From assembly GCA_031263195.1 (NCBI GenBank), contig JAISGD010000029.1:1-41861 (forward strand): a stretch of DNA of 41,861 nt, written 5' to 3'. The DNA comes from Campylobacteraceae bacterium (GTDB lineage: Bacteria; Campylobacterota; Campylobacteria; Campylobacterales; Campylobacteraceae). Of this stretch, positions 125-36,910 are shown one piece after another (position 1 is the first letter of the stretch; each line of letters begins with the position of its first letter). The position numbers were made by a program, and so were the translations under genes. The notes under the pieces are model-generated. The model made no database searches. It had not been told where the DNA came from and saw only the letters and a program-made list of their open reading frames with translations.

Positions 125-3100
125 CTAAAACCCCTCAATGTCTATTATCTTTAAACCTCCATCACCATCAGCTATAAACGCTTTTGTTTCGTCTGACGAG
201 AGAGCGATACCATAGCCCGACATAGGGAGCTGACCGATAAGAGTTGGATTTGCAGGATTTCTCACATCTATTATCTTTAATCCGTAATAATCATCAACCG
301 TAAACACTTTTGACTCATCTGATGAGAGAACGATATCGTAGATATATGATGATGTATCAAACTGACCGATAAGAGTTGGATTTGCAGGATTGCTTACATC
401 TATTATCTTTAAACCATCATTATCGGTTATAAATGCTTTTGTATTGTCTGACGAGATAGCAACAGCTTCAACATATGGCAACGTGTCAAACCAACCAAGA
501 AGAGTTGGATTTGCAGGATTGCTTACATCTATTATCTTTAAACCATCATCATCGGTCACAAATACTTTCGTATCGTCCGACGAGAGAACGATATCGTAAA
601 TATACAATGGTGTATCAAGTTTATCTATAAGGGTTGGGTTAGCAGAGTCACTTACGTCTATTATCTTTAAACCCTCATCATCGGTTACAAACGCTTTCGT
701 ATCGTCCGACGAGAGAGTTACAGTCCAAGCATATGATAATATATCAGTCTGACCGATAATTCTGTTTTTAGTATCTAATGTTAATTTTATAGTATTGCTG
801 TTACCGCATGTACTTACTGCATATATATTTGTGGTATATTTACTGCCCTCCGATACAGTAGTAGTCTTTACGTAAATCAATCCGTCTTCTGTAATATCAA
901 ATACAGAGTTATCGTCCAATACAAACTCCGTTATTTCGCAATACGTATCAGAGACTATTCTTATCCCTCCTATTTCTTCATCCATATATATTGTTTCATA
1001 TAAAACATTAATATAAGTATTCTGTAAAGCAGGAGACGTATCTCCCATATCTCCAACATAAATATAAGCTGTTTCCACATTACTGCCGCCAAATTCATTG
1101 ACAGCTTTAACGGATAGAGCATAACTGTTTTTACTCTCATAGTCCAGATTTGCTCCGTCATTTACAACTATAGTTCCATTGTTGTAAGCTTTGAAGTTTT
1201 CATTTCCTTCACCATCTAAAGTTATTGATATTACGGGTGAACTGCCGTTATTAATGTCTAACTGTCCGACAAATGTTTCTGCAGGAGAGTTTTCATCTAT
1301 ATGAAAATAAATATAACTTGGAATAACAGGCGGATTATCCGGCAAATCATTCACATAAATACGGATATTTACCGTAATACTGTCACCAAAGGCATTTGTC
1401 GCCTTAACATATATCCGGCTATAAACTCTTTTATCCTCATAGTTCAGATTTGCTCCCTCTTTTACAACTATCGTTCCGTTACTGTAGACTTTGAAGTTTT
1501 CGCTTCCTTCACCGCTTAAAGTTACAGACGTTACGGGCGAACCGTTATCATCTATCTGCAACTGTCCGACAAATGTTTCTGCAGGGGAGTTCTCATCTAT
1601 ATAAAATAGCCAATCATCGTGCATTACGGGCGGCAATTGATTATTTATAAAATTCTCAATATCTATTATCTTTAAACCGCTGCCGTCAGCAACAAACGCT
1701 TTTGTATTATCTGATGAGAGAGCGATATCGTAGGCATTCGATAGAGGAATTTGACTGATAAGAACAGGATTTGCGGGATTGCTTACGTCTATTATCTTCA
1801 AACCGTCATAATAATCGGCTACAAACGCTTTCGTATCGTCTGATGAGAGAACAACGGCTCTTGCATATGACATCATACCGATTTGACCAATAGGGGCAGG
1901 TTCGGCAGGATTACTCACGTCTATTATCTTTAAACTATAGCCGTCAGCCACAAATGCTTTTGTATCGTCTGATGAGAGAACAATATCTAAAGCATATGAT
2001 GTATCAAATTGATTTATAAGAGCAGGTTCGGCAGGATTACTTATGTCTATTATTTTTAATCCACCGGTATAATCAGCTACAAATGCTTTTGTTTCGTCTG
2101 ATGAGAGAGTGACGGCTTCGGCATACGATGATACATTAAATTGACCTATAGGAACAGGATTGACAGGATTACTTATGTCTATTATCTTGAAACTACCCTG
2201 ATCAGTTACAAATGCTTTTGTATCATCTGATGAGAGAGTAACATACTGAGCATCGCGTGTATTAATCTGACCGATAAGAGCAGGCTCAGCAGGATCGTAT
2301 ATGTCTATTATCTTTAACCTGCCGCTATAAGAATCAGTTACAAATGCTTTTGTTTCGTCTGATGAGAGAGTGACATCATAAGCATATGTATTAAACTGAC
2401 CGGCAAGAGAAGGACTGAGAGGATTTATTACATCTATTATCTTTAAGCCTCCATAGCCACCAGTTACAAATGCTTTTGTATCGTCTGATGAAAGAGCGAT
2501 ACCGTAAGCGTAATGCGGTAACGTATCAAACTGACCGATAATCCTGCTTTTGGTATCTATTGTCAGTTTTATAGTATTGCTGTTACCGCATGTGCTTAAA
2601 GCATACACATTCATAGTGTAGTCGTTATTCGCCGACACAACGGTATTTGTATAAATTTCACCGTTATCTCTGATATTAAATACAGAGTTATCATCAATCA
2701 CATATCCTGTTATATCGCAATGTATGGTCGAACCTACTCTTATAGCGCCTATTGTTTTATCTGCAAGTATTGTTTTATACATACTAAAGTAAGAATCCTG
2801 TAAAACAGGAAGAGTATCTTTTAGGTTATTTAAATAGATATCAATATCTGCTATGTTGCTGTCGCCAAATACATTTGAGGCTTGAACCGACAAATAGTAA
2901 AAGTTTTTACTCTCATAGTCCAGATTTGCTCCCTCATTTACAACTACCGTTCCATTATTGTAAACTTTGAAGTTTTCATTTCCTTCGCCGTCTAACATAA
3001 CAGATGTTACGGGCGAACTGCCGTTATCAATGTCTAACTGTCCGACAAATGTTTCTGCCGGAGAGTTTTCGTTTATGTAAAAATAATATGAAACTCCAGT

Positions 3101-6100
3101 AATAGCAGGAGGAAAATCAGGCAGATTATTCAGATAAATACGAACAGTTACCGTATTACTGCTGCCGGCAATATTGTCTGCTTTGACTTTGAGGTCGAAT
3201 ACCTTTTTACTCTCATAGTCCAGATTTGCTCCTTCATTTACAACTACCGTTCCGTTATTGTAAGCTTTAAAGTTTTCGGCTCCTTCGCCGTCTAACATAA
3301 CAGATGTTACAGGTGAATCGTAGCTGCTTATACTTAACTGTCCGATAAATGTGTTAGCCGGAGAGTTTTCGTTTATAGAAAAATAATATGAAACTCCGGT
3401 AATAGTCGGCGGTATATCCGGCAGATTATTGATATTAATAGTTACATCAACTATATTACTCTCACCGTATATATTGTCTGCTTTGACTTTGAGGTTAAAT
3501 ACCTTTTTACTCTCATAGTCTAAATTGGCTGAATTTGTTACGGTTATTTGACCGTTACTGTCTATAGCAAACCAGTCACTGTTTGTACCGTTTAGTATGG
3601 TAAAAGAGGTTATCGGACTGTTTCCGTGAGAGTATACGGCAACACTGCCGACTATTGTGTTTGCAGGCGAGTTTTCATCAACGCTTAATGTTGTCGGTAT
3701 CAGTATGGGTTCTTCATCGGGAGCATTTACAACGTTTATCGTTATATTGACGGATTTACTGACATCATGAGAGTTTGAAGCTATGACCTGGAGGTTATAA
3801 ACACTCTTTGATTCATAGTCTATCTTAGCCCTTGTGGCTACTTTGATAAGTCCCGTTGAGTCTACGGTAAAGTATTCGGACTCTCCGCTTAGAGTAAAAG
3901 AGGTTATTTGGCTTTTACCGTTTGAACCGACTTTTACATATCCTGCTATCTCACCTCCGTAAGAGTTCTCCATAATGTTTAGAACTGTATCTTTTAATAC
4001 CGGAGCATCGTCTATAAGCGTAACGGAAGCTGTGCTTTGAGCAGTATTGCCGATGCTATTTGTAGCTTTGATAGTAAATGTATATATATTTTTAATATCA
4101 TAATTGATATTGACTCCCTCTTTTATTCTTATCGTTCCGTCCGCATCTATCGTGAAATACTCGGCATCGCCGCCTATGAGCTCAAACGCAGTTATAGGAC
4201 TTGCACCGTAAGAGTAAGAGGGTTTGCCTATAGCTGTTCCGCCCTCTAGTCCTTCCATGATTGAAACGCTGAAGTTACGCAAAGACGGCACATCGCCTAT
4301 AACAGTTATCTTTACTTTAGCTTTACTGCCTGAAGCGTTTGCTTCAAGATTGAAAACTTGTCCTACGCTCAAACCTCTATTATCTATCAAAATTATAACA
4401 CCGTTTGAGTTTATGCTAAATCTTTCGCTTCCCGTACCGCTTAGAGTAAAACTATCGGGCACAGTGTAACCGTAACTGTATGCTATTTTTCCAACAACAG
4501 AGTTATTTTCGGCGCTGACATATATATTTGCGTTGAAATCATAAAGCGATATACTACTATCTGCTTCCGAAGATACGATATTTATATTTACTGTTCTAAT
4601 TTCACTAACGCCTTGTTCGTTTTCGGCTGATATAGACAGGCGGTAAGGGGAATCCTCTGTCTTGATGTTGGCATTCTCGGAAACTCTTATAGTTCCGTCT
4701 ATACTGACATTAAAGTTTTCAGCCCCGTATCCTTCAAGCTTAAACTCTTTTATAGCTGAAAAACCTTCGTAATAAGAGGGCTTTCCTAAGATAGTACCTT
4801 TTGCGATATCTTCTCTTATCGTTACAGAGATATCATTTAAAACAACAGGTACATCGTCGTATATATTAAACCGAACAAACGAGGGCGCGCTCTCTCCGAA
4901 AGTATTCGCGGCGATTACCATGAGGTTATAGACTTTATCGCTCAAAGTTATATTCTCGCCCTGCGCTACGGTTATTTTGCCGCTATTGTCTATATTGAAG
5001 TATTCTGCCCCGTATCCTTCGAGCCTCATACTTGTTACGGGATATCCCATATTATTTACGCTTATCGTTCCTACATGATAGCCGTTCGGCATATTTTCAA
5101 AAATATAACCTTCAATACTATTTGTTATCACGGGAGAGTTGTCGGCGGTTACTGTGATATATACGGATTCGGCAGGAGAGTTGCCGTAAGCGTTTGTATC
5201 GGTAACTTGCAGACTGTATATCCTCTTTTGTTCATAAACGAGATTGGCGTTTTGAGAGACTTTGAGATTGCCTTGGTTGTCTACTTCAAAGTTTTCGGCT
5301 CCCACTCCGCTTAATGTAAACATATGTACAGGACTTTCGCTGACGCAGTCAGTATCTATCCTGCCGATGACAGTTCCTATCAAGGCATCTTCGTTTACGC
5401 TGAAATATCCGCCTTTTACTAAAGGCTTGGCGTACAGTTTGAAACTATCTTCATATATATCTTCGCCTTTATGGATTTTATTGATAATAGGCATAAATTC
5501 ATTACGGTAACTTCTGTATAGTTTATCCATATCATTATAAGGAGTAAAATACAAAGCGTCTATGGTATTGGTAACATTGTCCAAATTTATATCGGTCTTT
5601 AAAAGACACTTTACAGTTTCATCGCTTTTACTTATAAATTTAGACAAATCATCTTTATCATAATACTGTTTGGATATCTGATAAGCCATTTCAGTCAGGA
5701 TGTTCAGTTTAAAGCCTATGTTTTTCAAGGCACTTCCGCTTGTTACGGCTCTTACGCTTCCTAAATTGATAACGGGGTTATTGATATCAACCACTTTATC
5801 ATCGTTCGCATCTATATCTACCCCGCCTTTTGCTTCAACTATATAAAGCTTCTCGTCCGAAAGAGCGTCTATTATCTCTCTTGGCATAGCAATGACGCCT
5901 GCTGTGTAGATAGACGAACCATAAGAAGAGATTTCTGAATATAGAGGGTTTGAACCTTTGTCTGCGGTAAGATTATAATCCTTAAGTTCGTAAATACTTA
6001 TATTCGCTCCGGCTAACGGCCCAAGCAATGCCTGCGATATATGCCAGATGATAGAGTAGATATAGCCTTTTGCTGGAGAAGGAACATATGTAGCAGTCCA

Positions 6101-7984
6101 GCCTCCGGTTGAGTTTGTGATAGGAACATATCCTCCGCTGTAGCCTCCTCCTGTATATCCGCTACTGTGATAATATACAGACTTACTGTGTGTTCTAAAA
6201 GAATCCCCCAGTATAACCTCTATTTTTCTATCTTCCACCTTTATGTCTGCTATATGACCTCTGCTTAAACCATCCAATACCTTTAAGCTGACTACTCTTA
6301 TCTCATCATGACCCGGTACTGTTATGCGCACTCTGACATCTTGCATCTCTTTCTGACTCGCGTTTATATCAGAAGCGCTGTATGTAATATACACGGGATA
6401 GAGTCCGGGCTTTAGACCTGCTCCTATAGCTGCACTTTCACTCGGAGAGTAGAAATGCTCCATAAGCTGACATTCGTCTTTCACATCATGTACTCCGGCA
6501 GGGAATACTACATTTAAATCCATATCCGCATCTGTGTTTTCCCAAGAAACGCTTACTTCTACAAAACCGGATGTGGGTTCCGTGATAAGATCGATGGAAT
6601 CGTCTATGCTTTCAAGCGTCTCGTTATTTTCATCTTTTAACAAATAGCATATGTTCTTGCCTATTGTAGGATCAACGCTGTCCCCGTAAGCGCTCTTTGC
6701 TCTCACGTATTCGCCGTTTTTCAAAGGATAGAGTTTGCCGTAAGTATAATCGTCTGCGTCAAACGGATAGACAAGCGACTGCACATATTGGTTTAGGCTG
6801 TCGTCGTACATATGTTTAGCATATTTCAGCTTATATTTGCAAAGGTTTAAAACATTGCAGGAACCGTTCTTTTTAATTTTCCACTGTGAAAGAGCAAAAT
6901 AAGGCGATTGTATATAATCTTTTAAAACAGTTATGATTGTACTATATGCTGGATTTGCTTTTTCAATAACTTCAATACCATTATCAACCTTAAATACAGG
7001 CATCATATAATACTCAAACGCATTAAACTTGAGATTTTTTACATCGTAGTCTGCCCCGAAATCATGCTGTCGCAAACAAGAATCCAACAAATAATCGTCT
7101 CTAAAATAAACTCCATTAGCGCACGGCAGAGTCTGTCCTTCGTATCTGCTTTCATCTTCGGGTTTTACGATGATGCGTACATATCTCATAGGATTTTCCA
7201 CAACACCGTCTGATATCTCTGCGACAGGGTCGTTGTCAAAAGCAACCGCCGTTGACTCTCCTAAGAGATTTTTTGACGGAGAGGCTATGGCTATCGCTTT
7301 GATATAATGCGTCATCCACGAGTTGTGACTCTCTATCGCTTTATATATTTCGTTAAAAAAGAAATTACCTTGAGCATGCGCAATGACTACCACGCGATGT
7401 CCCGATCTCACGCTTTCTCTTACATCCGCTATTTGCCGAGTGAAATCTTTATCATGCATAATATCGCTTGCAAGTCCGATTGCGCTTGGTATGACAGAGC
7501 ATATGTCTGATGTGAAAAACAGTTCTACTAGATTTTTCAAAAATGTAATTTCAAACCAATTTTGTATGGGATCTACGACAAGTTCTACGATTAGTCCCTC
7601 AAACATACTTTTTATCGCTTCTAAACGCCCGCCTGTTAACAACCCGCATCCGCCGCTATAAGCAATATCCACCATCACCCAAAACCATCTATCGTCTGCT
7701 TTTCCCTGTTTGAATGACTCTAATGTATCCCAAAACTCACCGTATGTATCATTGTAAAGGAGTTTGTAGTCGGTTTCTTTATCCATAGCGGTTTCGTTGT
7801 TATGATATATCTCTTTTTTGGCAGCTTGCTTAATTATTTTAAATAATGCATTCTTTGCATCATTTTCTGTTACTAACATACCATTAACATGATAGATATC
7901 AGTAATTCTTTCATCTATTATGATATCTTGAGCATTCAGAAATATAGGAAATAAAAATATTAAAGATAAAATTAGCTTTTTCAT
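125..7984 (-). CDS. Giant exported repeat protein: inactive lipase-like head, cadherin-like repeats, two LVIVD propellers
   Basis: This encodes 2619 residues with a Sec signal peptide (residues 1-18, LNA-Q cleavage). Residues about 186-215 resemble the nucleophile elbow of alpha/beta hydrolases, but the motif reads AHAQG (202-206) with Ala204 where the catalytic Ser should be. Residues about 472-560 resemble a DUF2135/YfaP-type domain (WENTDADMDLNV). A Gly/Tyr-rich stretch lies near 605-630. From about 857 there are roughly ten cadherin-like repeats (INENSPAETFVGQL type), then seven LVIVD repeats (1812-2112), three more cadherin-like repeats (2115-2400) and five LVIVD repeats to the C-terminus. 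The ATG has an AGGAAAG site inside the end of the upstream lipoprotein gene, so the two are probably co-translated. A role as a surface or secreted adhesion or binding protein is inferred. No membrane anchor is visible. Confidence 0.9.
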   Translation of the reverse strand: MKKLILSLIFLFPIFLNAQDIIIDERITDIYHVNGMLVTENDAKNALFKIIKQAAKKEIYHNNETAMDKETDYKLLYNDTYGEFWDTLESFKQGKADDRWFWVMVDIAYSGGCGLLTGGRLEAIKSMFEGLIVELVVDPIQNWFEITFLKNLVELFFTSDICSVIPSAIGLASDIMHDKDFTRQIADVRESVRSGHRVVVIAHAQGNFFFNEIYKAIESHNSWMTHYIKAIAIASPSKNLLGESTAVAFDNDPVAEISDGVVENPMRYVRIIVKPEDESRYEGQTLPCANGVYFRDDYLLDSCLRQHDFGADYDVKNLKFNAFEYYMMPVFKVDNGIEVIEKANPAYSTIITVLKDYIQSPYFALSQWKIKKNGSCNVLNLCKYKLKYAKHMYDDSLNQYVQSLVYPFDADDYTYGKLYPLKNGEYVRAKSAYGDSVDPTIGKNICYLLKDENNETLESIDDSIDLITEPTSGFVEVSVSWENTDADMDLNVVFPAGVHDVKDECQLMEHFYSPSESAAIGAGLKPGLYPVYITYSASDINASQKEMQDVRVRITVPGHDEIRVVSLKVLDGLSRGHIADIKVEDRKIEVILGDSFRTHSKSVYYHSSGYTGGGYSGGYVPITNSTGGWTATYVPSPAKGYIYSIIWHISQALLGPLAGANISIYELKDYNLTADKGSNPLYSEISSYGSSIYTAGVIAMPREIIDALSDEKLYIVEAKGGVDIDANDDKVVDINNPVINLGSVRAVTSGSALKNIGFKLNILTEMAYQISKQYYDKDDLSKFISKSDETVKCLLKTDINLDNVTNTIDALYFTPYNDMDKLYRSYRNEFMPIINKIHKGEDIYEDSFKLYAKPLVKGGYFSVNEDALIGTVIGRIDTDCVSESPVHMFTLSGVGAENFEVDNQGNLKVSQNANLVYEQKRIYSLQVTDTNAYGNSPAESVYITVTADNSPVITNSIEGYIFENMPNGYHVGTISVNNMGYPVTSMRLEGYGAEYFNIDNSGKITVAQGENITLSDKVYNLMVIAANTFGESAPSFVRFNIYDDVPVVLNDISVTIREDIAKGTILGKPSYYEGFSAIKEFKLEGYGAENFNVSIDGTIRVSENANIKTEDSPYRLSISAENEQGVSEIRTVNINIVSSEADSSISLYDFNANIYVSAENNSVVGKIAYSYGYTVPDSFTLSGTGSERFSINSNGVIILIDNRGLSVGQVFNLEANASGSKAKVKITVIGDVPSLRNFSVSIMEGLEGGTAIGKPSYSYGASPITAFELIGGDAEYFTIDADGTIRIKEGVNINYDIKNIYTFTIKATNSIGNTAQSTASVTLIDDAPVLKDTVLNIMENSYGGEIAGYVKVGSNGKSQITSFTLSGESEYFTVDSTGLIKVATRAKIDYESKSVYNLQVIASNSHDVSKSVNITINVVNAPDEEPILIPTTLSVDENSPANTIVGSVAVYSHGNSPITSFTILNGTNSDWFAIDSNGQITVTNSANLDYESKKVFNLKVKADNIYGESNIVDVTININNLPDIPPTITGVSYYFSINENSPANTFIGQLSISSYDSPVTSVMLDGEGAENFKAYNNGTVVVNEGANLDYESKKVFDLKVKADNIAGSSNTVTVRIYLNNLPDFPPAITGVSYYFYINENSPAETFVGQLDIDNGSSPVTSVMLDGEGNENFKVYNNGTVVVNEGANLDYESKNFYYLSVQASNVFGDSNIADIDIYLNNLKDTLPVLQDSYFSMYKTILADKTIGAIRVGSTIHCDITGYVIDDNSVFNIRDNGEIYTNTVVSANNDYTMNVYALSTCGNSNTIKLTIDTKSRIIGQFDTLPHYAYGIALSSDDTKAFVTGGYGGLKIIDVINPLSPSLAGQFNTYAYDVTLSSDETKAFVTDSYSGRLKIIDIYDPAEPALIGQINTRDAQYVTLSSDDTKAFVTDQGSFKIIDISNPVNPVPIGQFNVSSYAEAVTLSSDETKAFVADYTGGLKIIDISNPAEPALINQFDTSYALDIVLSSDDTKAFVADGYSLKIIDVSNPAEPAPIGQIGMMSYARAVVLSSDDTKAFVADYYDGLKIIDVSNPANPVLISQIPLSNAYDIALSSDNTKAFVADGSGLKIIDIENFINNQLPPVMHDDWLFYIDENSPAETFVGQLQIDDNGSPVTSVTLSGEGSENFKVYSNGTIVVKEGANLNYEDKRVYSRIYVKATNAFGDSITVNIRIYVNDLPDNPPVIPSYIYFHIDENSPAETFVGQLDINNGSSPVISITLDGEGNENFKAYNNGTIVVNDGANLDYESKNSYALSVKAVNEFGGSNVETAYIYVGDMGDTSPALQNTYINVLYETIYMDEEIGGIRIVSDTYCEITEFVLDDNSVFDITEDGLIYVKTTTVSEGSKYTTNIYAVSTCGNSNTIKLTLDTKNRIIGQTDILSYAWTVTLSSDDTKAFVTDDEGLKIIDVSDSANPTLIDKLDTPLYIYDIVLSSDDTKVFVTDDDGLKIIDVSNPANPTLLGWFDTLPYVEAVAISSDNTKAFITDNDGLKIIDVSNPANPTLIGQFDTSSYIYDIVLSSDESKVFTVDDYYGLKIIDVRNPANPTLIGQLPMSGYGIALSSDETKAFIADGDGGLKIIDIEGF
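128..780 (-). repeat. LVIVD repeat block 2 (5 units, about 126-129 bp each)
   Basis: These are coding tandem repeats with the pattern LSSDDTKAFVTD...GLKIIDVSNPANPTLIGQ. Bases 371-420 and 500-549 are identical over 50 bp at a 129-bp period, which indicates recent duplication or homogenisation. LVIVD repeats (PF08309) form beta-propeller blades. Five units is fewer than a usual complete propeller, so the fold may be incomplete or may pair with another chain. Confidence 0.85.
1650..2550 (-). repeat. LVIVD repeat block 1 (7 units)
   Basis: Seven successive copies of the (G/S)(L/F)KIID(V/I) motif are seen, each preceded by LSSD(D/E)TKAFV. Seven units would make one complete seven-bladed propeller. 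The block ends IDIENF and is followed by cadherin-like repeats. Block 2 ends in the matching IDIEGF and then stops, so the two blocks are copies of one cassette. Confidence 0.85.
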
Positions 7985-30089: not shown

Positions 30090-32981
30090 TTATTGGACAA
30101 CTTCATCTCCAAATCGATTTATAAGATATTCGTAAGTACTATTCGGTACTATCTCTCTAATTTCATCAAAATTTTTCTCTTTCAAAAGTCTTCTAACTCT
30201 TGAGGCGCTTATCGGATCATTGTTAGACTCGACTCTTTTTATCACTTCAAAGTCTATACCGTATTGAGGCAGTATCATTTTCATAGTGTTGTTATACTGT
30301 CTTGTAATATTATCAAGCGGTTCTTCACCTGCAAAACGTATATTTATGTTTAAAGATGGAGCTATCTCTTCAGCAAAAATAGTGACATCGCTTGAAGCAT
30401 CTATAGTCTCATCTTGAAGTCTTTCTTTATTTGAATACGCCTCAAACGTCAAAGATGAGATGATAAATCTACCGCTTGGTATAACGGTGATATTTTGCAA
30501 GTCTTTAACACCTTGCTTGACTAGTTCAAACCTGTCAACAAAAGGGAAAAACGACTTATCTTCTTCTACTACAAAAAGGTATAAATGCTTTACTTTTTGG
30601 ACCGACTGCTCTATTAAGTATCTATGACCCAAAGTAAAAGGATTGCAATTCATAACGATAGAGCCTATTTTGCCTTTGGTTTTAACTTTATACTTTAAAA
30701 GCAGAGATTTATATTTTGTAAGATTTTCATGTTCCTCTTTGCGGACAATATTCGATTTGGCAGGCTTAGACGGCGACTTTACCCCCCCCCCCCCCACTTT
30801 GAGAACAGCTTTTGTTTTATCATCAAATAAGTGATTATCCAACATTGTTTGAAATAACAATTCAGCAATTTTTTGATTGCCTATTTTGTTGAGATGTAAA
30901 TCATCAATAAATACTTCACCCATATCATGAGGACGTTCAAAAGCTTGCTGAGTCTCGCATATAATAAAATCTTTATCAATTAAATTTTTTATTGATTTTT
31001 CATGTATTGAAAAAATTATCAAATCTCCTTTTTTAAACTTTGTATTTTTAATTAAGTTAATCTGACAGTCGTGATTTCTGCCGCCATAATTTGCACAATT
31101 CATAACACAATATTTATCATTACTGCTAAAGTGTCGATTAATAGTTCTTTGTAAATTACTCGGAATAGTATCATAATCAGAAGAACCAGCTCCAAGCATT
31201 ACGCTATTGCCAAAAGAATAGATATTATGCATAAATTTGTCTGGTTGGTCTGTTGTAAGCCTGAAATTATTTATAACATTTACATTCTTACCCAATCTAT
31301 TTTTACAATACGTAATTTCATTTATTGTTGTGATAAGTATTGGTCTTACTACTTCTCGATTGTACTCCAAAGAATTATTAAATCTATCTAACGCAGCTGG
31401 AATTATTGGTTTTTCTGCATTTATCATATCGCGTGTCTTCTGATAGGTAACTAATTCTAATTCATTTTCAGATTTATGAGTTACCTCTTTAGCCAATGGT
31501 AATAAGCAACATATTAGTTGAACTTCTGGATTACTTTTTTTAATATCTATCAATGGTTCAATGATAAATTTTTTACAATATATATCAGAAATTACATCCA
31601 ATAAATGAATGACCTTAGCTTTTGTTTTTTCTTGTATAGATAGCATAAAACTTGTGTTTTTTTTGGATGTGCAAATTAAAATTACATCGTCCTGATTAAA
31701 AGAAAAATTATCTGCTAATTTGAGATGCGTAATATTAACACTTGCCGGTACATATATATGATATGTATAAGAGTATCTACCTAAAAGATATTTAATATTA
31801 AAGTTTTGTGAATGTCTTGCGCTTACCCATATAAGTTTTGATAGTTCTGCGTCATCTTGATGTCCAAATATACTTATTTCTCTAATGCCTAACTCTTTAA
31901 AATATTCTATAATATTGTAGTTAAAAGATGATATAGCATGAAGTTTTTCTTTAATGTAATTGATATTATTTGTATGATTTTCTTTTTGCTTAATAAGTGC
32001 AGATATTTGTGAAATTGCTTCAGAATAGTTACTTTTTTGATAATTTAAATATTTCAAAGCCGATATTTCATCGTAATTAATGTATTCTGTTAAGAAAGAG
32101 TTTTCTTTTACAGAATTAATCTCTTTAGTACATACCATAATTGCATAATTACCAAACTTTTTTAATGTAAAAGATGCAAATGAATTTTGACTGTATTCAA
32201 TTTTAGCAACCAAAGTAGCTTCATCAAAAATATGATATTCAAACAAGAAATCTTTATCGTATTTAGCTCCCATTTGAATGTTTAATATATTATTTTCTAT
32301 TGAAATAGTATATGGCATATCAAGCATATAATGTTTCTTATTATCAGCTATACTAGTTTTTGGTCTAATATAACAATCTGGATAAGCCCTTGACCAATTG
32401 ATATTTCTTTTTATAATTTTCGCCGGAACACCACATGCAATAATATTATTTTCCATAATTTTACCAGTAACTAAAGATTGCGCACCGATTACAGAATTAT
32501 CAGAAATTACACTACCTTTAAGAAGAATAACTCTACAACCAATCCACACATGATTACCTATAACGACATCTTGTCCATAATTTATACATTCAAGTGTTGT
32601 ATTATCATAAATTGCATGACTATCAGATGTAAATATGATTATCTCAAAAGAGAACATGCAATCATCACCAATGTAGACCGAAGCAGACTCATTCATATTA
32701 ATCTGACAACCTACACAAGAAAATCCATCTCCTATTTTAATGACAGTATCATTCACTTTTTCTGCTGCAATTTTTAAATTCTTAATATGGCGCTTTGTCT
32801 TTCCTATGCTTATTGTATTATTATTACCGCATTTAATTATTACATTTTGAAAATCTGTGTTTTCATATATACTTATACGATTTCCTTTTCCGATAAATTG
32901 AATACTTAACCCTTTAATATTATTGCCGATCGTATTATCTTTTTCACCATTTTCTTTAATAATTTCAACAATATTTTCCAC
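30090..32981 (-). CDS. Phase-variable fusion: left-handed beta-helix acyltransferase, SGNH hydrolase, citrate-lyase-ligase-like nucleotidyltransferase
   Basis: This encodes 963 residues from a GTG with AAGG nine bases upstream. Residues about 20-205 form a hexapeptide-repeat acyltransferase (catalytic His in SDSHAIYD; VVIGNHVWIGCRVILLKGSV; ACGVPAKIIKRNINW). A middle region of unclear fold follows (about 205-550). Residues about 560-720 look like an SGNH/GDSL hydrolase with GAGSSD and the DDLHLN block V dyad. A Gly4 linker (about 730-733) is encoded by G14. Residues about 760-963 match the C-terminal domain of citrate lyase ligase CitC: NPFTLGHRYLIE and SASRVRRLL, both nucleotidyltransferase motifs. 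No citrate lyase genes are near. Its place after a glycan-type gene suggests acyl decoration of a surface polymer (inference). Confidence 0.8.
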   Translation of the reverse strand: MENIVEIIKENGEKDNTIGNNIKGLSIQFIGKGNRISIYENTDFQNVIIKCGNNNTISIGKTKRHIKNLKIAAEKVNDTVIKIGDGFSCVGCQINMNESASVYIGDDCMFSFEIIIFTSDSHAIYDNTTLECINYGQDVVIGNHVWIGCRVILLKGSVISDNSVIGAQSLVTGKIMENNIIACGVPAKIIKRNINWSRAYPDCYIRPKTSIADNKKHYMLDMPYTISIENNILNIQMGAKYDKDFLFEYHIFDEATLVAKIEYSQNSFASFTLKKFGNYAIMVCTKEINSVKENSFLTEYINYDEISALKYLNYQKSNYSEAISQISALIKQKENHTNNINYIKEKLHAISSFNYNIIEYFKELGIREISIFGHQDDAELSKLIWVSARHSQNFNIKYLLGRYSYTYHIYVPASVNITHLKLADNFSFNQDDVILICTSKKNTSFMLSIQEKTKAKVIHLLDVISDIYCKKFIIEPLIDIKKSNPEVQLICCLLPLAKEVTHKSENELELVTYQKTRDMINAEKPIIPAALDRFNNSLEYNREVVRPILITTINEITYCKNRLGKNVNVINNFRLTTDQPDKFMHNIYSFGNSVMLGAGSSDYDTIPSNLQRTINRHFSSNDKYCVMNCANYGGRNHDCQINLIKNTKFKKGDLIIFSIHEKSIKNLIDKDFIICETQQAFERPHDMGEVFIDDLHLNKIGNQKIAELLFQTMLDNHLFDDKTKAVLKVGGGGVKSPSKPAKSNIVRKEEHENLTKYKSLLLKYKVKTKGKIGSIVMNCNPFTLGHRYLIEQSVQKVKHLYLFVVEEDKSFFPFVDRFELVKQGVKDLQNITVIPSGRFIISSLTFEAYSNKERLQDETIDASSDVTIFAEEIAPSLNINIRFAGEEPLDNITRQYNNTMKMILPQYGIDFEVIKRVESNNDPISASRVRRLLKEKNFDEIREIVPNSTYEYLINRFGDEVVQ
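30782..30795 (-). repeat. G14 homopolymer (contingency tract) inside the fusion gene
   Basis: The coding strand has 14 consecutive G. With 14 the frame is open. With 13 the next codon is TAA. With 15 a TAA follows five codons after the glycines. Slipped-strand mispairing would therefore switch the C-terminal ligase domain on and off while leaving the acyltransferase and SGNH part translated. Confidence 0.85.
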
Positions 32982-33029: not shown

Positions 33030-36000
33030 TCAAATTTTTAAATATAGTTTTCCAATTTTTCTTATTAAAAAATATTTACTATCACTAAAAAACAGATAAG
33101 GATCTCGTGCAAATTTTTTCTTTTTATTTTCAGAAAGAAACCTATTAAAAAGTGAGCTAATTACTTTTCTACTCATACTTGGCAATATACAATTTATATT
33201 TTTATTTGTTTTTGCAATGCACGGTTTATTACTCTGATCAGCAATCAACGCTTCGCGACCCTCTTTCCAAACACATTCAATATTAAGATTGTCACTTGGA
33301 GATAAAATTATTTTATTTTTACCGCCGTACGAATCTTCAAATTCAATGCCTGCCAATATTTGAGCATCTCTAGGATGTGGTTTGTGAAAAAATAAATCTA
33401 ATACACGAATAGTTTTATTTGGCTCGATATCCAACTCAGCAAAACTTGTACCCATTGACTCAATTACATCATCGATAAAAGTTAAAGCCCCAATTTGTAG
33501 TTGTTTTATAAGTCTTGATCTATTTTTATTAGTTCGCATATCTTCCATAAAAATCGGATACAATTTGTTGTTCCAATCTTTTGTCATTCTAACGAAAGAT
33601 GTTTCTGTAGCACTAAATAATGTTTCATACATAGGCACATAACGACAAAATGGATGATATGTATCATGACGATCTACAAAATTTGCAAAAAAGGCATTAG
33701 CGAAAGCTCCTTTTTTAACAACTCTATCCATTGCTGCACGAAATGTAATAAGGTAATAGCCGCCAATGACTTTGTTATTTATAAGTGATTGTATAGATTC
33801 TTGCATAGTGCCAGCATAACCTATATCTACTATCGCAACTTTGTTCTCTTGTGCTAAACCACATTGCGTTAAATACTCTTTATATGTCTTGCTTTCCTCT
33901 GTTGCAATATCCAATAGAATATCTTTCATCTCTACAATCAAATTACGTAAACTACTTCTATCCTTAGCTGTTAGTTTCGTATCCCATTTAAAATTATTCT
34001 TATGTATAATATCAATTATTTCCTCGGAATAGGTAACTCCAAAACGGTGAGTCAATAAAAATCCAAGCGTAACATTGTTTGCATAGTCTATATTTACCAA
34101 GTCTATTAAATCATTTTCATCCTTAGCTTTTGCAAGATTAACGGCTCGTCTAGAACAAAGCAGATAGTGTGATGATGGAGATTTTTTATAATATGGTAAT
34201 AATTTATCATAAGCATTTTTTATTATTTTACCGTCTCGGGACAAAAAATATAATTTTTTTATTCCATCTCGTATTGCTGTTTCAATAAGCCATTTTGCAT
34301 AGCCAAACAGTAACGGACCTAAACCGTAATAACCTAATTTCCATGGATCTCCACTGAATAAAGTTCCTTTTCTTTCTGGAATATATGGATTGTCATTTAG
34401 TTTATTTCCAATAATAGTCAATATTATACGCCAATCCAAAGAGTGTCGTTCTGCATCACGCCGCCATGGTCTTAAATATGCAGATGTTTCGCAAAACCTA
34501 TCAAATGATCTTCTTAAATGAAATGATTTTATTCCGTATTTAGACGCCATTCTAACATCTGTTTCTATATTATCACCAATATGCAAAATGCTTCTGGAAT
34601 CAACGCCTAATTCCGTCATCATAATTTTAAAAAGTTCTCCACTATGTTTTTTTGCTTTATATGTTGATGAAAGAAAAAGCTTTTCATATGCTTCATAGCC
34701 ATTTTTGCGTAATACATTTTTTATGAAGTACTCAGGCAAATACATGTCGGATACTATAATGATACGCTTTTTTAAGCTTACAGCTTCAACAAAAGCACTA
34801 TAGGCAACTTGTCGCTTTTTTAGAAATTTATATTCTGCATCCATTTCGAGCTCTATAAGCTTATTAATGGTAGTAATATCTAATTTTAGTATATTCCCAA
34901 TAACAGAATAAATTTCATGCAAGCTTGTTTCACCTTCTCCTCTTTCTCGTGCTTGCATAAATGCCGTTTTTTCTGCTTGTATACGTTGATACCTAAAGTC
35001 TAAATTTGGTATCATTGTTATTTCTCTTGCATCCTTTTCAATGAAACTAAACATATCTGTAGGTTTTTGAAATGGGCGTATCAAAAGAGTATCAAAAATA
35101 TCAAATGAAATAATATCATATTTAGCTATTTGAGCTGAGAGTTCTTCCGAATAATTCATGTTTGATTTATTTTTTTTAATAGCTGCACCCATAATAGAAA
35201 GGAGTTCTTTTTCTCTGCTCTCCTTTATTAATTCAGAAGCAAGTGTATTATTGGTCCAAGTGCTAAAACATCCTGTTTGCATAAAATGTTCTAACCACAA
35301 AATATATTGTTTTGTCTTGATGAAACTCATCGGCAAATGAGATTGCTTAAGCATAGACACTATCAAATTATTTCTATCGAATGTTTCTCTTTTTTTTACT
35401 TGCTCTGCAAAATCTTCAAGCGTATCAGCGGTAGCAAAGCGAGAAATATGACTCTCTCCTACGGTAAAAACCGGCTTTTGCCAAAATGCAGCCTGATAAG
35501 CAACAGAAGATGATATTGATATAACTCCATCAACAAACGGCACAATAAACTGTGATACATAGGGTATATCATCATGATCTGTTTCAAAAAATATATTTGG
35601 AAACTTTAACTTTAAAAAGTTAAAACTTGTTTCCGACAAAACAGCACTTTTATTTTCACCAGATTTGTAATTAGTTATTATAATGGCTTGATTTTTCGGA
35701 AGTTTTTTTATAATACTTACCAGAAGATCAAATTGCTTCATTTTTTTAAGCTGGCAATCAATCATAAAGTAGTTATCTAGCTGCAACGGAAATAAAATAA
35801 TACTATCAAATTTTATACGCAAAGAATTAAGATAGGAACTTAAAGGCGAAACTGACTCCAAAAATGATTTTTGCGCTTTCTGCAAGGTAGTTAAATCTTG
35901 AAGTTCGCCCTTAGTATATATATGTTTATCTATTTTTATCTTAGAAGAGTGTTCCAATAATCCAACATCCATCGCGATCATATTTGCAAATGGCGGTCTG

Positions 36001-36434
36001 GAAAAAAAGCCAGGCATTTGATACAATATTTTTGAATTAGGAAAAATTTTCGATAAATAACTTGCTGGAGTTTCCCACACTATAATCAAATCTGGATTAT
36101 AATTTGGCGGCAAAACACCCTTTAATATCTTTGCTAATCTACTAATTTCATTGTGTAAATACTTATTATTGTGATGACGTATACTACGCTCTAAATAATT
36201 TTCGCAATTTGTCCATTCAATCGAATCTATAGCAGCAAGAGTTAAATTTGATTGCATATGGTAATCCGACGTATACTTTTGGGCAATAGAAATGCTTGTT
36301 ACCAACACAATCTCACCACCTGAATCCACAATAGTTTTTATTTGCGGCAATAAAGAGTTTCTTAGTGTCGCATATCTAAATAATGGATTTGCAAACTCTA
36401 TTGCTGGTTCAAGATAATAAAGAATATTTTTCAT
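33030..36434 (-). CDS. Large glycan-biosynthesis protein: Capsule_synth-like domain plus HAD hydrolase (COG5610-like)
   Basis: This encodes 1134 residues from the ATG at 36434 (GGAG six bases before). A TTG four codons upstream has no such site. Residues about 1-410 resemble capsule-synthesis glycosyltransferases of the KpsC/KpsS type (ILFPLQLDNYF; SISSSVAYQAAFWQKPVFTVG). Residues about 440-650 are a HAD phosphatase fold: motif I DIFDTLL (Asp445, Asp448), motif II SDMYLP, motif III HIGDN (Asp621). The C-terminal half (YFLSRDGKIIKNAYDKLLP; VAIVDIGYAGTMQESI) is typical of large HAD proteins in polysaccharide loci. It overlaps the upstream ORF by four bases. The precise sugar substrate is unknown. 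Confidence 0.75.
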   Translation of the reverse strand: MKNILYYLEPAIEFANPLFRYATLRNSLLPQIKTIVDSGGEIVLVTSISIAQKYTSDYHMQSNLTLAAIDSIEWTNCENYLERSIRHHNNKYLHNEISRLAKILKGVLPPNYNPDLIIVWETPASYLSKIFPNSKILYQMPGFFSRPPFANMIAMDVGLLEHSSKIKIDKHIYTKGELQDLTTLQKAQKSFLESVSPLSSYLNSLRIKFDSIILFPLQLDNYFMIDCQLKKMKQFDLLVSIIKKLPKNQAIIITNYKSGENKSAVLSETSFNFLKLKFPNIFFETDHDDIPYVSQFIVPFVDGVISISSSVAYQAAFWQKPVFTVGESHISRFATADTLEDFAEQVKKRETFDRNNLIVSMLKQSHLPMSFIKTKQYILWLEHFMQTGCFSTWTNNTLASELIKESREKELLSIMGAAIKKNKSNMNYSEELSAQIAKYDIISFDIFDTLLIRPFQKPTDMFSFIEKDAREITMIPNLDFRYQRIQAEKTAFMQARERGEGETSLHEIYSVIGNILKLDITTINKLIELEMDAEYKFLKKRQVAYSAFVEAVSLKKRIIIVSDMYLPEYFIKNVLRKNGYEAYEKLFLSSTYKAKKHSGELFKIMMTELGVDSRSILHIGDNIETDVRMASKYGIKSFHLRRSFDRFCETSAYLRPWRRDAERHSLDWRIILTIIGNKLNDNPYIPERKGTLFSGDPWKLGYYGLGPLLFGYAKWLIETAIRDGIKKLYFLSRDGKIIKNAYDKLLPYYKKSPSSHYLLCSRRAVNLAKAKDENDLIDLVNIDYANNVTLGFLLTHRFGVTYSEEIIDIIHKNNFKWDTKLTAKDRSSLRNLIVEMKDILLDIATEESKTYKEYLTQCGLAQENKVAIVDIGYAGTMQESIQSLINNKVIGGYYLITFRAAMDRVVKKGAFANAFFANFVDRHDTYHPFCRYVPMYETLFSATETSFVRMTKDWNNKLYPIFMEDMRTNKNRSRLIKQLQIGALTFIDDVIESMGTSFAELDIEPNKTIRVLDLFFHKPHPRDAQILAGIEFEDSYGGKNKIILSPSDNLNIECVWKEGREALIADQSNKPCIAKTNKNINCILPSMSRKVISSLFNRFLSENKKKKFARDPYLFFSDSKYFLIRKIGKLYLKI

Positions 36435-36910
36435 GCAACACTCCAAATATTTGACAACAAAAAAGTCAAAATGAAAGGCAGTGCAGACATATAATTCACC
36501 TTATTAACCGCCACCTGTTTTTCAGTAGTGCTCAAATATCGCTCTGAAATAAAATTACTTATATCGTCTGAACAATGCAACCTTGTGTGTATTTTTGCTT
36601 GATTTCGTAAAATATTAATTATTGAGCCTTCAATTTCTAAATCTTCAACAATAATGTCATTATAGTTTTTATTTTTCTTAATATTTTGAATATATAATGT
36701 AACATACTCATAGAACTCTGATATTGGTTTTTGTTGTGCCTCAATGATCGCTTGATAGTTAACGTTCCTATTTTTCGGTACTAAATTGGCATTTTTTACG
36801 TAATTATTAATACTATCACCAACACCTTCGACTAAATTTACTAAATATATATCTGATTTTGATATCACGCTATTTTGATCCTTGATGATTAAATTTATAA
36901 CTATAGGCAA
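36431..36910 (-). CDS. Unrecognised 159-residue ORF, possibly 5'-damaged
   Basis: The frame runs MPIVINLIIKDQNSVIS to the C-terminal LPFILTFLLSNIWSVA, which may be a membrane segment. It is joined to the next gene by an ATGA overlap, which argues that it is or was translated. The first possible start is a TTG at 36910 with no clear ribosome-binding site, and the first ATG lies only near the end. It could be a decayed gene or have a non-standard start. No family was recognised. Confidence 0.4.
   Translation of the reverse strand: MPIVINLIIKDQNSVISKSDIYLVNLVEGVGDSINNYVKNANLVPKNRNVNYQAIIEAQQKPISEFYEYVTLYIQNIKKNKNYNDIIVEDLEIEGSIINILRNQAKIHTRLHCSDDISNFISERYLSTTEKQVAVNKVNYMSALPFILTFLLSNIWSVA

Follow-up and report, generated by a model that had tools for sequence, protein, structure and literature searches.

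Phase variation of protein C-termini by poly-G tracts has been described before. In Helicobacter canadensis, ranges of tract length were found at the read level, and in one case a tract merges two reading frames (PMC2823697). C-terminal phase variation by poly-G has also been described for Neisseria (PMC5320596). Hence, the mode of variation discussed here is known. What is new is that the target here is an entire catalytic domain, and that the enzyme bearing it has not been described.

The tracts of H. canadensis resemble ours in being late (G10-G14) and in altering the C-terminus when their length changes, which it does among reads. However, in H. canadensis mostly a few residues change, and the merged frames encode hypothetical proteins, whereas in our case the cell would gain or lose an entire, conserved catalytic domain of ~210 residues (PMC2823697). 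For N. meningitidis pglB2, as cited in the Neisseria account, a homopolymer likewise reportedly decides whether two parts of a glycan enzyme form one protein; there it is a poly-A tract and two adjacent genes, whereas here there is a single gene and the second part, a nucleotidyltransferase (NTase), lacks a separate start (PMC5320596). Surface genes of Campylobacter carry G/C homopolymers in their coding sequence and switch by frameshift, but there the tracts usually switch the whole product, while here most of the protein stays (PMC8355987). Most known contingency tracts switch an entire product in this way. A tract in a linker would switch one catalytic module instead, and in a multidomain enzyme it could yield two functional surface forms.

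The gene lies on the minus strand of the window, the whole 41.9-kb stretch of DNA analysed here (30090-32981). It starts with GTG, encodes 963 aa and is the last gene of its own strand run before rpsJ. The encoded protein begins with an LbH (hexapeptide) acyltransferase module (about residues 1-214, 32340-32981). A middle region follows (about residues 215-722, 30816-32339), in which an FnIII-like part, a helical/Rossmann-like part and an SGNH-like alpha/beta part succeed each other. A linker (residues 722-748, 30738-30818) then leads to a C-terminal CitC-type NTase (about residues 749-959, 30105-30737).

Within the linker, 14 consecutive G encode residues 729-734 (30782-30795, read as C14 on the plus strand); no other homopolymer in the window reaches a length of 10. 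A previous sequence-only reading had placed the tract at exactly this position and had taken it to encode a glycine linker between domains. The minus-strand codons across it are AAA GTG GGG GGG GGG GGG GTA AAG. An AlphaFold model, built with seven homologues in the alignment, gives pLDDT values below 50 for residues 722-748 and confident domains on either side, so the linker is probably disordered or flexible.

We simulated the reading frame for tract lengths from G10 to G18. Only G11, G14 and G17 give the full-length protein. All other lengths lead to a stop at 732-739 of 963 aa, and the NTase is lost whenever the length is not 2 mod 3. As the sequence-only reading had predicted, losing one G places the stop right behind the glycines (G13, 733 aa, ending in KVGGGG), gaining one G places it a few codons on (G15, 738 aa, ending in GGGGGKVAV), and both frames lose the C-terminal domain. 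A change in tract length therefore alters the product, and it does so late in the gene while retaining most residues, as in the C-terminal phase variation of Snyder et al. (2010). The run lies in a coding sequence and is far longer than expected by chance. In a first-order Markov model with the window's own composition, about 3e-6 runs of G14 are expected per window and about 1e-4 per genome.

We consider it reasonably probable that this poly-G tract acts as a contingency locus and subjects the NTase-bearing enzyme to C-terminal (late translational) phase variation. Slipped-strand mispairing would alter the number of G. At lengths of 2 mod 3 the full polypeptide would be made, with its NTase on a flexible linker, and at the remaining lengths the protein would end ahead of the NTase. 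This OFF state would remove the NTase activation step. The N-terminal LbH acyltransferase may stay active in it.

Alternatively, the tract could join and separate two genes, so that a separate NTase protein would be made in the OFF state. HCAN_0660/0661 provide a published precedent (PMC2823697). Within the genus, species G003 has a C13 tract at codon 177 (L089:1442-1454), with a polysaccharide deacetylase part on one side and a radical-SAM part on the other; at its present length the tract apparently joins the two genes, and the radical-SAM part has its own ATG. In our gene, however, no in-frame ATG, GTG or TTG was found between the tract and the NTase core. The first in-frame start codon after the tract is M777, which already lies inside the core motif VMNCNPFTLGH. 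For lack of a start codon ahead of this motif, we reject a separate translation start for the NTase. Furthermore, the related Treponema gene is one continuous ORF. We thus give two joined genes next to no weight.

In the C-terminal NTase, residues 772-953 match PF08218, the C-terminal domain of CitC ([citrate (pro-3S)-lyase] ligase), with E=1.3e-65 in Pfam, and the TLGH and ISAS motifs (of the TxGH and ISxS type) are conserved. Phosphopantetheine adenylyltransferases (PPAT), TmcAL and pantoate ligase are its fold matches in the PDB. With stand-alone CitC the domain shares 42-47% of its residues. In contrast to CitC, the protein has no N-terminal GNAT domain, and the NTases of the fusion proteins form their own sequence cluster. 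The whole-protein profile of CitC (TIGR00124) scores 214.1 bits against a cut-off of 262.1 and is matched at positions 113-329 only. A search of the own genome for CitF, the only citrate lyase subunit we searched for, gave no match, and we reject a role with citrate lyase for that reason. The name ligase, as used in the sequence-only reading, is thus unproven; the domain corresponds to the NTase part of CitC. We also looked for a second copy elsewhere in the same genome and found just weak matches to other nucleotidyltransferase-like ORFs, and we reject duplicate copies on these grounds.

Adenylation of a carboxylate is the reaction of CitC, TmcAL and pantoate ligase. Most likely, the NTase converts a small carboxylate or phosphate substrate into an activated nucleotide adduct, which would serve the decoration of surface glycans. 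The role in glycan decoration is suggested by the neighbouring genes and the LbH domain.

The OFF states would keep the N-terminal part and the middle region. The N-terminal part contains PF00132 hexapeptide repeats (29.0 bits against a cut-off of 27), as expected for an LbH protein; the NCBIfam matches to WbbJ-like and maltose-acetyltransferase-like families are both below their cut-offs. Among the homologues found, the LbH module is seen in the window protein alone. AlphaFold models it poorly because the homologues in the alignment do not cover it. The middle region was also modelled separately (517 residues) and reaches a mean pLDDT of 79.7. In a fold search against the PDB its top matches are FnIII-like only and span about 100 residues. 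The SGNH-like reading of the later middle part comes from its topology and from a sub-threshold match to Lipase_GDSL_2 in one homologue (E=0.0024). The window protein itself has no SGNH/GDSL match in Pfam, and the putative active-site Ser and His (GxS ... DxxH) are missing in a Propionibacteriaceae homologue. Hence the SGNH label of the sequence-only reading is weakly founded.

The NTase, on the other hand, is the best conserved module of the protein. Between the window protein and its orthologues in species G012 and G009 the NTases are 74-77% identical, and the Treponema NTase is still 65% identical; across the fusion family the range is 54-77%. For the middle region, identity is 44-49% with G012 and G009 and 35% with Treponema. 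Given that no other module is as conserved as the NTase and that its fusion persists across phyla, the OFF state would probably lose the core reaction, rather than toggle between a two-activity and a three-activity enzyme as the sequence-only reading had it.

This leads to the main rival explanation, a simple on/off switch that happens to sit in the later part of the gene. The shortened protein would be inactive or degraded, and there would be no meaningful two-activity form. The conservation of the NTase and its fusion to the middle region in Treponema speak for such a switch, as do putative SGNH active-site residues that are not kept in all homologues. Against it, a separate model of the middle region without the NTase still shows a fold of fair confidence, the linker is probably flexible according to the model, and the LbH module was added independently. 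We regard a simple on/off switch as doubtful, though it carries appreciable weight. A further reading, which we hold to be unlikely, is a single surface-glycan enzyme that carries its activating module, the NTase, behind a hypermutable linker. Slippage would then give the cell two differently decorated surfaces, the first due to the full enzyme and the second to the acyltransferase parts that are left, rather than a decorated and a bare one.

Orthologues of the gene are found in MAGs of Campylobacteraceae bacterium (isolates Po218, Cd354 and Gsp477). Judging from the isolate codes and general knowledge, we take the MAGs of three relatives to be of termite-gut type, and the host is apparently an uncultured Campylobacteraceae of the termite gut. 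Related proteins occur in one Treponema MAG and one Propionibacteriaceae MAG. The Treponema protein shows the same fusion of middle region and NTase, without any tract; the gene (L061:5974-7800) encodes a 609-aa fusion of SGNH-like part and CitC-type NTase and is followed by a glycosyltransferase-like ORF. A literature search for the SGNH-like/CitC fusion found no description. The gene points to an undescribed enzyme family that combines an SGNH-like part with a CitC-type NTase and also occurs in Treponema and Propionibacteriaceae from MAGs of a similar kind.

The linker differs between species, with one genome compared per species: G14 in the window, G9 in species G012, a short GGGGG in species G009 and no tract in species G013. 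The G9 of G012 has the same linker position and follows the same frame logic as our G14, and it may be too short for frequent slippage. Since the fusion exists without a tract in G009 and G013, the switch is not general. Ahead of a strongly conserved catalytic domain, a variable linker has thus either acquired a tract or lost one.

It could also be that the assembled tract length is wrong, or that the tract is stable and there is no switch. The genome is an assembly of 32 contigs, and the tract is missing in two orthologues. However, G14 keeps a conserved domain in frame, the corresponding site of a relative carries G9, and genes with tracts abound in the genus, some of them assembled out of frame. 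We therefore find the absence of a switch very unlikely.

The sequence-only reading had named homopolymeric G tracts as known phase-variation sites in Campylobacterota, and switch-like G tracts are indeed frequent in the genus. Tracts of at least 10 G number 61 in all and occur in 12 of the 14 congeneric genomes, where the Markov model expects about 0.1 per genome. Many of them sit in coding frames. This frequency supports the sequence-only reading, as do the position, the frames, the linker and the domain loss, whereas the ligase, the SGNH label and the toggle between two and three activities find little or no support.

Two runs of at least 10 occur in the genome to which the window belongs, both G14; the second (L055:5449-5462) lies in a 287-aa FkbM-like methyltransferase-like ORF, and adjacent lengths stop at 79-82 aa. 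A PF01555 DNA methylase of species G013 carries a G17 near its N-terminus (L076:1502-1518) and joins its start codon at G16. Its homologue in species G007 has a G18 near the N-terminus (L082:1502-1519) and joins its start codon at G17. Both genes are thus assembled one base off the start-joining frame, and from their sequence we regard the methylase as a candidate phase-variable methylase. In species G012, a C15 at the start of a KpsC-like gene (L052:4802-4816) is also assembled off frame; the gene is open from its start at C13 and C16. In two species the gene of a WG-repeat protein has a tract near its end, G13 or C15 (L068:1502-1514, L069:1496-1510), and in G012 a phosphatidylserine decarboxylase gene adjoins the WG-repeat gene.

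Off-frame alleles such as those of the methylases and the KpsC-like gene are what phase variation predicts, and assembly error would be another possible source. Given the tract-rich genus, these off-frame genes and the G9 at the linker of G012, the G14 tract is likely hypermutable, as judged from one genome per species. If so, poly-G phase variation would extend to a genus of uncultured Campylobacteraceae that apparently live in insect guts, with candidate methylases and capsule genes among its targets. Transcription can slip on long homopolymers, and slippage of RNA polymerase or of the ribosome would give every cell both the long and the short protein in a constant ratio while the DNA stays unchanged. 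Yet the out-of-frame assembled alleles of the genus point to changes at the DNA level, and we consider such a mixture highly improbable.

A frameshift should leave operon partners unaffected, as there is no same-strand gene directly downstream. Going downstream, rpsJ is the first gene on the same strand, 1.5 kb off and beyond a convergent ATPase-like gene; we assigned the names of rpsJ and the neighbouring ribosomal genes from their sequence. Scans for promoters and terminators performed no better than on shuffled sequence. The fusion gene was not found in the near-complete congeners G001, G006 and G008 and is therefore accessory. We also considered and rejected a conserved genomic site. The flank of the ATPase gene holds other genes or a contig end in G001, G005, G006, G008, G011 and G003, and in this respect, too, the gene looks accessory.

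Upstream, the gene adjoins a minus-strand gene for a 1138-aa protein with a HAD-like domain (33030-36446). A homologue of this neighbour adjoins the NTase-fusion gene in species G013 as well, and in species G012 the orthologue adjoins a KpsC-like capsule gene (PF05159). Elsewhere in the window, positions 125-7984 encode a 2619-aa protein with cadherin and LVIVD repeats.
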